A DNA stretch of 64,000 nt from the NCBI RefSeq assembly GCF_019969685.1, contig NZ_JAHXYZ010000003.1, positions 186,001 through 250,000 on the forward strand. The letters are read 5' to 3'. Source of the DNA: Microbacterium sp. EST19A (GTDB taxonomy: Bacteria; Actinomycetota; Actinomycetes; Actinomycetales; Microbacteriaceae). Under the pieces are notes generated by a model that did no database searches, was not told where the DNA came from, and saw only the letters and a program-made list of their open reading frames with translations. How positions within the stretch are numbered: the stretch's first letter is position 1; each line of letters starts with the position of its first letter. Position numbers and translations under genes: made by a program. Positions 3,404 through 48,484 of this stretch are shown here, piece by piece.

Positions 3404-4582
3404 ATGACCGAGTTCGACCAGCGTCTCGACCCCGCGTTCTTCGACCGCGTGCAGGCCCGCGTGCGGGAGCGCATGGCGGAGGAGGGCTTCGACGCCTTCC
3501 TCACCGATCACCCCGAGGACATCGCGTATCTCACCGGGTTCTTCCACCATCCCTCGGAGCGTCCGGTGGCGATCTGGCTCGAAGCAGGCGGACGCGTCGT
3601 GATGCTGCTGCCGGAGCTCGAACGGGAGTACGCGCAGTCGCAGTCGTCGCGGGCCGAGCTGGTCGCCTTCTTCGAGTACCCGGGCGTCGTGGCGCCGTTC
3701 GAGGTGCTCGCCGCGGCGGTGTCACCCCGCGGTCGTGTGGGGTTCGCCTCGACGATGCCGTATCAGCGCCTCACCGCGGCGCGGTCGGCGATGAGCGGCG
3801 CCGAGCTCGTCGACTCGGACCTGCTCACCCGCGCGCGGTACGTCAAGTTCCCCGAGGAAGTGGTTCTGCACCGCGAGGCGGCGCGCATCACCGATCGGAT
3901 GCTGGAGGCCGGTGTGCAGCTCGTCAGCGAGGCGGTGGCCGCGGGCGGAGACCTTCCGACCGAGACCGAGCTCGAGCGTCACGTGACGACCGCCGGTACC
4001 TCGCTGATGTATGCCGAGCACCGCAACGTCGTCGTCGCGTCGCTGCTCGCGGGTGGACTGGTGTACTCCGGCGCGAACTCCGCCTTTCCGCACGGCCTGC
4101 CCTCGGTGAACCGGCTCAAGGCGGGGGACACCTTCATGCTCTCGCTCGGCTGCGCGGTGGGTGGGCGGTTCATCGAGGGGGAGCGCACCTTCGTGCTCGG
4201 CGAGCCGACGGCCGATCAGCGGCGCTATCACGACACGATCCATGCGGCGCAGCGGGTCGGCCGCGAGACGATCCGGGCCGGCCTCGAATGCCGTGAAGCC
4301 AACCGCCTCTGCCTCGACATGATCCGCGAGGCAGGGCTCGGCGAGTTCATCCGCCACCGCCAGGGGCACGGCATCGGACTCGGCATGCACGAGGCACCCT
4401 GGCTGGAGGACGGCGATGCGACGCTGCTCGAGGCGGGGATGGTCGTGTCGAACGAGCCGGGGATCTACGTGCCCGGCCATGCGGGCTACCGCATCAGCGA
4501 CAGCATGCTCGTGACCGAGGACGGCGCCGAGCCGCTGACCACCTTCCCGCGCGGTCTCGACGACTGCACCATCGCGCTCTGA
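3404..4582 (+). CDS. M24 family hydrolase, creatinase-like (non-canonical metal site)
   Basis: A 392-residue pita-bread-fold protein: N-terminal creatinase domain (1-145) and C-terminal M24 domain (155-392). Conserved M24 features are present: PHG (H230), GHG (H322), HE (H329) and NEPG (E351). Canonical dinuclear-metal ligands are not: the first Asp position is S247, the second is E258 in an E-G-E-R-T motif, and the last Glu position is S365 (GYRISDS). E260 and E351 align with the catalytic glutamates of creatinase, a metal-independent M24 member that cleaves a C-N bond. It therefore probably hydrolyses an amidino, ectoine-like or other amide substrate rather than being a Xaa-Pro peptidase. 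Context: peptide-type importer upstream, alpha/beta hydrolase and Lrp regulator downstream. The substrate is unknown. Confidence 0.85.
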   Translation: MTEFDQRLDPAFFDRVQARVRERMAEEGFDAFLTDHPEDIAYLTGFFHHPSERPVAIWLEAGGRVVMLLPELEREYAQSQSSRAELVAFFEYPGVVAPFEVLAAAVSPRGRVGFASTMPYQRLTAARSAMSGAELVDSDLLTRARYVKFPEEVVLHREAARITDRMLEAGVQLVSEAVAAGGDLPTETELERHVTTAGTSLMYAEHRNVVVASLLAGGLVYSGANSAFPHGLPSVNRLKAGDTFMLSLGCAVGGRFIEGERTFVLGEPTADQRRYHDTIHAAQRVGRETIRAGLECREANRLCLDMIREAGLGEFIRHRQGHGIGLGMHEAPWLEDGDATLLEAGMVVSNEPGIYVPGHAGYRISDSMLVTEDGAEPLTTFPRGLDDCTIAL

Positions 4583-4610
4583 CGCATCCGATCTCGAGAA
4601 AGAGGACGAC

Positions 4611-46453: not shown

Positions 46454-46507
46454 GATGCGCTCCGGCACGACGTCGATGGCGGCGGGCAGACCGCCGACCC
46501 TGAAGGC

Positions 46508-47035
46508 ATGAACGGACGCAGCCTCGACCCGAACGCGCTGCGCAACGAGGTCTTCACCCGCGTCTTCGACGACAACTGGGCATCGGTGCGGCATCACATC
46601 GAGTGCGTGGTCGACGACGACGCGGAGGTCACCGAGATCGTCTCGGAGGTGTTCCTCCTCGCATGGTCGCGGCTCAAGCCCTCGCGCCCCATGGGGCGGA
46701 TCTGGCTGCTGCGCGCGGCAGAGCGGCGTCTGCGTGCGCGATCAGGACGTCGGCTGACGCTGCACACCGCGCTCGATGCCGTGCACGCCGGGGTCACCGG
46801 AGACTCTGCTCCGCCAGGGCGTGTCGGGCGCGCGGAGGTCGTCCGGGCTTTGGGTGTCCTCAGCGGCAAGGAACGGCGTATCATCATGCTGACGTACTGG
46901 GATGGACTCGCGGTGGGGGAGATCGCGGAGTTGTCGCGCGCTTCTGAGTTCCGGGTACGGAAGACGCTTCGCCGTGCACAGGATCGTCTGCGCACCGAGT
47001 TGGGCCTGGAGGGGGTGACATCCGATGACGACTGA
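46508..47035 (+). CDS. RNA polymerase sigma factor, ECF/sigma-70 family
   Basis: 175 residues. Region 2 (about 15-75) is recognisable but divergent, with the helix EVTEIVSEVFLLAWSRL. Region 4 (about 110-165) is clear: ALGVLSGKERRIIMLTYWDGLAVGEIAELSRASEFRVRKTLRRAQDRLR. The ATG has GAAGG upstream. The stop overlaps the start of an anti-sigma-like membrane protein by eleven bases, and a third gene for a secreted protein overlaps that one. Likely controls its own operon and perhaps envelope genes. Confidence 0.88.
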   Translation: MNGRSLDPNALRNEVFTRVFDDNWASVRHHIECVVDDDAEVTEIVSEVFLLAWSRLKPSRPMGRIWLLRAAERRLRARSGRRLTLHTALDAVHAGVTGDSAPPGRVGRAEVVRALGVLSGKERRIIMLTYWDGLAVGEIAELSRASEFRVRKTLRRAQDRLRTELGLEGVTSDDD

Positions 47036-48011
47036 CAACGCGGTGCTCGAGAGGGCGCTGAGCGACGCCGACCCGGCGCGTACTCCGCGCGATGCGGCGC
47101 CCGATGCCCGCGCCATCGCCACTCGCGACCGGATCCTCCGTTCGACGGCCGCCCCGAAGAAGCGCCGTCGTGCGCGTGCTCTGGGTTGGGCGACGGGTGT
47201 CGTCGCAGTCGCGACGGCCTCGGTGGTCGCCTTCGCCATGCTCACACCGCAGGTCGCCGCGGTGGCGGGCACGCCTTCTCCGCTGGAGTTCGCCGGGGAA
47301 TCCACGGTGGCCGACATCGTCGAGGAGGCGCAGACCGATCTCGTGACATCGGTCGGTCCTGCGGAGGCCGAGCGAACCGTCAGGACGGCCTCGTGGGGCT
47401 TCTCGGTCGACGTGGGCAACGAGATCACCAAGGTCGTTCCGCAGCTCTCGACCCTGACCTGGGAGCCCGACGGTTCGGGGCGGATGACGATCATCGCGGG
47501 TGTCCCGTACGATCCGACGGATGCTGTCGCCAACAATGCGGCCGAGGTGACCAGCAGCGGAAAGGTCGTCACGGATCTCGTCATGGAGCCCGGCGACTTC
47601 ACGACGCCGTGGATGACGGTGCCTGCCGCGAGCGGCGATGACATGGTGGCGGTGCTTCGCGCCTTCGGCATGCCGGACGACCCCACCGCGTTCGACGTGG
47701 AGACCGCATTCACATCCGTGCTCCAGCAATGGACGCTGACGAACCCGCAGCACGCGGAGCTTCTCTCCCTTCTCGAGGACGCTGGCGACGGCGTCGCACT
47801 CGGCACATCCACCGACCGTCTCGGACGACCGGTCTCGGGCATCCGCGTGCAATCGTCGGACGGCGCTGTGAGCGACCTCGTCCTGATCTCGCGTGAGACG
47901 GGCCGGATCGTCGGCGTCGAACGCACGGTGCTCATCGCAGACGAGGTGTTCGACGCGGGGGCGATCATCTCCTACGAGATGTGGGATGTCACGGAGGGAA
48001 CCATCGGATGA
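47025..48011 (+). CDS. Putative anti-sigma/membrane sensor protein
   Basis: 328 residues. A 55-residue cytoplasmic N-terminus ends in a KKRRRAR stop-transfer cluster, then one membrane helix (about 58-82), then a large outside domain of about 245 residues rich in beta strands. Such an arrangement next to an ECF sigma gene suggests an anti-sigma factor, although no zinc-binding H-x3-C-x2-C motif is present. The outside part somewhat resembles proteins labelled CU044_5270 family. It starts within the sigma gene and ends within the next. Role inferred from context. Confidence 0.7.
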   Translation: MTTDNAVLERALSDADPARTPRDAAPDARAIATRDRILRSTAAPKKRRRARALGWATGVVAVATASVVAFAMLTPQVAAVAGTPSPLEFAGESTVADIVEEAQTDLVTSVGPAEAERTVRTASWGFSVDVGNEITKVVPQLSTLTWEPDGSGRMTIIAGVPYDPTDAVANNAAEVTSSGKVVTDLVMEPGDFTTPWMTVPAASGDDMVAVLRAFGMPDDPTAFDVETAFTSVLQQWTLTNPQHAELLSLLEDAGDGVALGTSTDRLGRPVSGIRVQSSDGAVSDLVLISRETGRIVGVERTVLIADEVFDAGAIISYEMWDVTEGTIG

Positions 48012-48484
48012 AGCGTGCGACCACGACGGTTCTGGCCGGTCTCATCGGACTCATCATCGTGATGACGTCGGCTCCGGCCGTCGCGGCGCCGTCGGGCGAT
48101 GCCGAACCGGACCCGCAGATCACGGCGATGCTCGAAGAGGTGCCGGGCGGCATCGTCATCGACTCGAGGCATGCGGTGTGGCCGGAGCTCGCGATGGAAT
48201 TGACCGTGTTCGCGGACCGCGGGCGGTCCGCGCGCTCGGTCGGAAGCTGCGCGACGAACAAGATCTGCGTGTACAACGGTGTTTCACTGGGTGGCACGAG
48301 TGCGCTGACGTTCAGCACGTGCAGCAACCACACGATTCCGTCCTCGTTCTCGGCCAAGTCGCTGGCGAACGCCCGCACCTCGGGCTACGTGGAGGGGCGC
48401 AGCGGGTCCACGGTGGTCGCGACGGTGTACGCGGGCAGCTGGGCCAATGCGTCCGGCCTCACCACCCTCCGCTGCTATCTCTGA
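48008..48484 (+). CDS. Small secreted protein with four cysteines
   Basis: 158 residues with a Sec signal peptide (MKRATTTVLAGLIGLIIVMT..., cleavage near APAVAA-AP, about 22-28). The mature part has four cysteines (C81, C87, C105, C156), probably two disulfides, within CATNKICVYNGVSLGG ... TLRCYL. The spacing and the C-x5-C-V-Y opening recall the I36-type peptidase inhibitor/crystallin-like fold, but I cannot confirm it. It overlaps the membrane protein stop (ATGA) and is the third gene of the sigma operon, so it may be the cargo or signal of that system. Confidence 0.75.
   Translation: MKRATTTVLAGLIGLIIVMTSAPAVAAPSGDAEPDPQITAMLEEVPGGIVIDSRHAVWPELAMELTVFADRGRSARSVGSCATNKICVYNGVSLGGTSALTFSTCSNHTIPSSFSAKSLANARTSGYVEGRSGSTVVATVYAGSWANASGLTTLRCYL

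Follow-up and report, generated by a model that had tools for sequence, protein, structure and literature searches.

What do a sigma factor, a membrane protein and a small exported protein do together when their genes overlap one another in the genome of a soil Microbacterium? The window, i.e., the whole stretch of 64,000 nucleotides that was analysed, contains such a trio. The first-pass annotation had suggested that it is a self-contained signalling cassette of undescribed composition, whose secreted product could be the signal, the cargo or a protease inhibitor. Our comparisons across related genomes suggest that the trio is a signalling unit. More specifically, we propose a three-part extracytoplasmic signalling unit composed of a sigma factor, a signal-peptidase-gated anti-sigma sensor and an I36-type protein acting as the extracellular output. 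This is a tentative reading, to which we would give somewhat less than an even chance.

Gene layout and the sigma factor

The features of the locus are the following.

46455-46511, + strand: short upstream ORF, MRSGTTSMAAGRPPTLKA, 18 codons; its TGA overlaps the ATG of the sigma gene (ATGA)
46508-47035, + strand: sigma gene, ECF-type sigma-70 factor (by sequence similarity), 175 aa
47025-48011, + strand: membrane protein (sensor) gene, ATG at 47025, 328 aa
47259-47267, + strand: candidate type I signal peptidase site A-V-A, sensor codons 79-81, followed by G-T-P-S-P-L
48008-48484, + strand: third gene, ATG at 48008, exported four-cysteine protein, 158 aa

As first described, the sigma and sensor genes overlap by 11 bases, and the sensor and third genes by four (ATGA). 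The short ORF starts one base past the stop of the preceding gene, which we read as era from its sequence, and shares four bases with the start of the sigma gene. Among the 19 distinct era-linked loci compared, 18 carried an ORF of 15-19 codons with ATGA on the sigma start; no such ORF was present in the era-linked locus of G034. In the clade of the window, the unit thus appears to be an insert behind era with coupled translation, and its genes are presumably co-transcribed. The downstream gene begins ten bases past the third gene and, by eye, looks like an oxidoreductase. An Rfam scan of the window and eight relatives returned tRNAs only. The same genome carries two further tandem pairs of a sigma gene and a CU044_5270-type gene outside the window (G000:C8:79998-83245), and its sole I36 place among the matches listed is the one in the window.

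Region 4 of the window sigma factor matched PF04545 (E 6.2e-8) and PF08281 (E 4.7e-7), both over the gathering score, and the same Pfam scan returned no region 2 match (PF04542). The model TIGR02983 aligned with residues 13-166 at 44.9 bits, under its cut-off of 141.55. Across the aligned sigma sequences, the window sequence included, Sigma70_r4_2 was found in 30/30 and r2 in 17/30. Judging from these matches, the protein is an ECF-type sigma-70 factor with a clear region 4 and, probably, a diverged region 2.

The membrane sensor and its A-x-A site

The sensor consists of an Arg/Lys-rich tail of ~55 residues, one helix at ~residues 56-74 and an outer domain beyond it. It has no cysteine at all, and the HxxxCxxC motif is therefore missing, in agreement with the earlier description of a protein with one helix, an outer domain and no zinc motif. 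The missing zinc motif says little, because PMC7406223 puts the non-zinc share of class I anti-sigma domains at about 44%. Like proteins with these domains, the sensor is membrane-bound and encoded beside a presumed ECF target, but it lacks the cysteine/zinc motif, which is not required, and matches no Pfam anti-sigma domain. Indeed, a Pfam scan of 51 sensors at E<=0.01 returned DUF677 and DUF7262 alone, each in one member. The lysozyme-binding outer domain of RsiV was likewise not found in these 51 sensors (Pfam, E<=0.01). An AlphaFold model of the sensor built from four sequences gave no usable fold (pLDDT 32.2). A search of the sensor profile against the PDB returned weak matches with E-values from 0.047 upwards; nearly all were to RNA polymerase alpha, and they were set aside as implausible.

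The window sensor matched the CU044_5270 family model NF038083 over most of its length with an E-value of 1.2e-12, but its score of 48.2 bits lies far under the curated cut-off of 100. This model was matched at E<=0.001 by all 51 aligned sensor sequences. From this similarity, the sensor is best described as distantly related to the CU044_5270 family without being filed as a member. CU044_5270-type matches were found in 78/98 class genomes at E<=0.001, with 16 over the cut-off. The sensor also shares with this family its place beside a sigma gene: among the 14 best fetched CU044_5270 loci without I36 in the flank (L151-L164), a sigma gene adjoins 13, L160 being the exception. The sensor is presumed to be an anti-sigma factor. 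The claim of an undescribed composition holds in part, since the pair of a sigma gene and a CU044_5270-type gene also occurs elsewhere without I36, and what appears new, as far as searched here, is the dedicated I36 partner and the site described next.

Directly outside the helix, the sequence pattern [AS]-x-A was found in 51/51 rows of the sensor alignment. A proline stands six residues before A81 in 46/51 rows, and past the site a threonine is found at position 83 in 40/51 and a proline at position 84 in 47/51. The distant sensors linked to I36 present the A-x-A site followed by ATP in 14/14 rows with a complete N-terminus (L191, whose N-terminus is incomplete, was left out of this count). 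In contrast, an A-x-A-TP site was found in only four of the 20 CU044_5270 rows whose fetched flank shows no I36 gene (L153, L160, L161 and L164), some of these 20 rows being partial or weak matches and L161 lying at a contig end.

The arrangement resembles RsiV/SigV of Bacillus subtilis and RsiP/SigP of B. thuringiensis, in which an ECF sigma factor is likewise co-encoded with a membrane protein that has a short cytoplasmic tail. According to PMC6066255, signal peptidase cleaves RsiV in the presence of lysozyme, the cut falling between residues 66 and 67, and the residues after the cleavage site shield that site. RsiP is likewise cut by signal peptidase (PMC8844934). The A-x-A site, present in 51/51 aligned sensors and in 14/14 distant I36-linked ones, is placed like the cut position of RsiV outside the helix, and cleavage of the window sensor is predicted by this likeness. 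The unit differs from RsiV/SigV in that Pfam showed no outer domain of the RsiV type in the window sensor and in that an I36-type protein is co-encoded.

The same site can be read in a simpler manner. The middle protein might be plainly exported, with constant cutting at A-x-A, release of the outer domain and the tail serving as a long leader, while the sigma factor would be controlled otherwise. The site is canonical: a proline precedes A81 by six residues, and TP mostly follows. Such a site might be cut constitutively by analogy with RsiP, whose S84A variant is cleaved constitutively, an indication that cleavage at a good site may be continuous (PMC8844934). We nevertheless consider this explanation rather improbable. 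The better-aligned relatives retain a tail of ~50 residues before the helix, although this tail varies no less than the remainder of the protein (mean distance among sensors of 0.61 for the tail vs 0.63 for the outer domain). Moreover, a shield similar to that formed by the residues past the site of RsiV could exist in the window sensor.

Linkage of the three genes and candidate regulatory DNA

Of the 119 Microbacterium genomes searched, 36 contained the third protein and 51 the sensor among the matches listed. The third protein has 42 listed places in this genus, two of which are pieces of one gene (G071), yielding 41 genes. A sensor lies near 40 of these 41 genes, within 712 bp, and the unlinked one is a lone copy in G052. 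Conversely, among the matches listed, the third gene adjoins 41 of the 57 sensor places and none was found nearby at the remaining 16, a count based on up to 18 scored sensor candidates per genome and in which a very diverged third gene could have escaped detection. One clear loss is seen in G005, which retains a sensor (84% identity): the third gene is cleanly lost, and its first five codons continue in frame into the next gene (L088 ~4535-4594). Since no I36 gene was found near 16/57 sensor places, the third protein is not indispensable. The idea of a self-contained cassette stands as far as the conservation of the trio goes, but these places without a third gene do not fit it.

The proposal had been made to depend on the genes being conserved together, and the trio recurs in Microbacterium, in other Microbacteriaceae and in a distant family. 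The third protein was found in 18/299 Microbacteriaceae genomes, 14 of them outside Microbacterium. At the 16 loci outside Microbacterium, the sensor adjoins the I36 gene in 14, with a sigma gene also in the short flank in 12, and no sensor adjoins it in the other two. At the class level, 30/296 genomes presented a third-protein match, 25 of them outside Microbacteriaceae. Among the 20 of these 25 loci that were fetched, a sensor relative adjoins the third gene in 15, always facing it, and no sensor relative was found in the fetched stretch of the other five. A sigma gene is also present in 14 of the 15 facing loci, and the fifteenth ends at a contig end. The sigma factors of this distant family share just 17-19% identity with the window sigma factor.

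We then applied the family models to 15 of the 20 class-level genomes, which belong to three genera of one distant family and of which 14 were already known to be linked. Each genome contained one CU044_5270 gene at E<=1e-8, with 24 I36-model genes in all. In 14/15 genomes, an I36 gene lies next to that one CU044_5270 gene, no more than ~1.2 kb away, and in G618 the two lie ~6 kb apart on one contig. These counts show how specific the pairing is in the 15 distant-family genomes, which were chosen after the facing loci were counted, so that the two counts are not independent.

In the profile maps, most Microbacterium loci read sigma, sensor, third gene, and four loci (L064-L067) read third gene, sigma, sensor. 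Three arrangements are therefore observed in total: sigma-sensor-I36, I36-sigma-sensor, and sigma-sensor facing I36. The occurrence of these three arrangements in two families strongly suggests a shared function of the trio. Many of the trio loci are related, so the counts represent non-independent events. A chance operon was also considered and rejected, being ruled out by the linkage counts. Separately, locus L087 (G116) carries sigma, sensor, third gene, sensor and sigma on one strand, with a second pair in inverted order after the unit.

Two sequence elements recur near these units. The motif TGTMAGGA, in either direction, was found near the sigma start in 18 of the 29 sigma-first loci that are not behind era, within a stretch reaching from 350 bases before the profile start of sigma to 75 bases beyond it (background rate, 0.04 per 350 bp). 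It was also found upstream of the third gene in three of the four I36-first loci. The second element is an inverted pair, TCCTTACA-N28-33-TGTAAGGA, which occurs once per genome in seven of the 14 genomes searched (G058, G072, G044, G108, G006, G084 and G070), always at a sigma-sensor-I36 unit and upstream of the sigma gene. One example is located as follows.

L059 ~884-931, + strand: TCCTTACA...TGTAAGGA pair upstream of the sigma gene

The 14 genomes include two era-linked ones without the pair, and the reversed control pattern was found once in these genomes, in G058. Outer GTGTC/GACAC arms flank the pair in several loci, and the pair could represent back-to-back promoters or an operator. Together, the motif and the pair point to a dedicated control of the unit at loci other than that of the window. 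At the window locus, autoregulation is unsupported because there is no TGTMAGGA site near sigma and the unit is positioned directly behind another gene. In the distant family, no obvious shared motif was seen by eye upstream of the sigma and I36 genes.

The I36-type protein and its possible role

The third protein is built of a leader, an N-terminal GG...W region and a predicted C-terminal I36 / beta-gamma-crystallin-like domain at ~residues 79-158. It is indeed a small protein with a hydrophobic leader and four cysteines, as first described, and cysteines 81, 87, 105 and 156 are invariant in 42/42 aligned sequences. PF03995 (peptidase inhibitor family I36) was matched by 31/42 aligned third proteins at E<=0.1 and by 7/7 further relatives, over the gathering cut-off in six of them. 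The window copy itself gave no PF03995 match in Pfam at E<=1. By homology to these relatives, the third protein is placed with peptidase inhibitor family I36; inhibitor activity is putative. Of the roles first considered for the secreted protein (signal, cargo or protease inhibitor), it is the inhibitor that fits this family. The top PDB match of the third-protein profile was the Streptomyces metalloproteinase inhibitor 1bhu, itself of family I36, with a non-significant E-value of 0.28. The similarity covers 22 profile positions and includes the first C-x5-C stretch, and the third protein differs from 1bhu by its added conserved N-terminal region. Searching the PDB with one relative of the third protein alone returned nothing useful.

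Structural comparison relied on a low-confidence model (pLDDT 55.8). Modelled residues 79-158 matched several small beta proteins, beta-gamma crystallins among them, in VIA-align with Z ~4-5, all tied, the best row being 5z6e (Z 5.4, rmsd 2.7, 73 aligned), itself tied with others. SMPI was not among the VIA-align matches listed for this model, which excludes nothing, and Foldseek returned nothing at E<=0.001. The I36 fold is common to SKLP, MiAMP1 and a Streptomyces antifungal protein, and the third protein might be a cargo of antimicrobial or killer type that is secreted under the control of the sigma factor. VIA-align rows for MiAMP1 (Z 5.0), SKLP (Z 4.5), the S. tendae antifungal protein (Z 3.5) and 8w22_B, a chain of the Umb1 toxin particle (Z 4.9), are in line with such a role, and loss of the third gene is tolerated, as would be the case for a cargo gene. 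However, unrelated rows reach equal Z values in this comparison, the model is of low confidence, and Pfam places the relatives of the third protein in I36. We therefore regard a cargo role as unlikely.

Export leaders were identified in 33 of the 42 third proteins, with eight leaderless and one unclear (L064). A hydrophobicity rule alone called 34/42 leadered; L060 was then called leaderless by its sequence and L064 unclear owing to its uncertain start. The leaderless proteins (L059, L060, L061, L063, L099, L022, L024 and L026, all in Microbacterium) all begin at the ATGA overlap with the sensor gene and keep the four cysteines. With dN/dS of 0.14-0.31 in the four pairs tested, they look to be under constraint. 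The leaderless forms are at odds with a purely extracellular role, and no simple model explains them.

Under the mechanism that we propose, the ~55-residue tail of the sensor would hold the sigma factor while the outer domain hides the signal-peptidase site right outside the membrane. A cue from outside would expose the site, which signal peptidase would then cut; the membrane stub would be degraded by intramembrane proteolysis, freeing the sigma factor and allowing expression of the unit. Coupled translation of the shared mRNA would yield the I36 protein, which would act outside the cell, most likely as a protease inhibitor or a shield against the sensed agent. The losses in Microbacterium are asymmetric: I36 almost never occurs without the sensor, whereas the sensor often occurs without I36. 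Because of this asymmetry, I36 as an output or accessory partner fits better than I36 as an indispensable part.

Alternatively, the I36 protein might be the signal rather than the output, acting as the extracellular ligand of the sensor or as a lid that covers or exposes the cleavage site. Microbacterium I36 is seldom found away from the sensor (40/41), and the link outlasts changes of gene order and orientation. In addition, I36 distances correlate with several outer-domain blocks at 0.70-0.78 vs 0.65 for the tail, which argues weakly in the same direction, but just 18 of the 29 outer-domain blocks equal or exceed the tail in this correlation. Sensor places without I36 nearby among the matches listed, including the clean loss in G005, and the leaderless forms, which have no Sec route to the outer domain, further argue against a ligand or a lid, and we consider it somewhat unlikely. 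Broader still is the idea that, in actinobacterial anti-sigma circuits, a partner of I36/crystallin fold binds the outer domain and controls the signal-peptidase cut, thereby reporting outside proteolysis, and that in one Microbacterium clade this partner is cytoplasmic and acts on the tail or on the sigma factor. This would be a long shot. As a proxy for contact between tail and sigma factor, we also compared their coevolution. Partial correlations looked suggestive, both for this pair and for I36 with the outer domain, but the matched-length block control gave no support to a tail-specific signal, 14 of the 29 outer-domain blocks doing as well as the tail.

If the signal-peptidase-gated unit with I36 as its output is true, signal-peptidase-gated sigma activation would extend from Bacillus to actinobacteria. 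The conserved link between I36 and the sensor, together with the signal-peptidase-like site by which the linked sensors stand out, provides a testable role for both the CU044_5270-type sensor and the I36 protein. In the open-access literature, we found no paper naming the CU044_5270 family or joining I36 to a sigma factor, and a dedicated I36 partner with a conserved signal-peptidase-like site appears to be new as far as the literature searched here.

Two minor observations concern individual I36 copies. In G052 (L069 and L050), the truncated lone I36 copy opens with MIMFDVIDFTRDPGG, a stretch that is also present upstream of the sigma gene in the unit of the same genome, which suggests a duplicated or mobile repeat. 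Finally, the third proteins of L073 (G090) and L109 (G174) are nearly identical even though their genomes are assigned to different genera, so this pair probably reflects a recent transfer or a mixed assembly.
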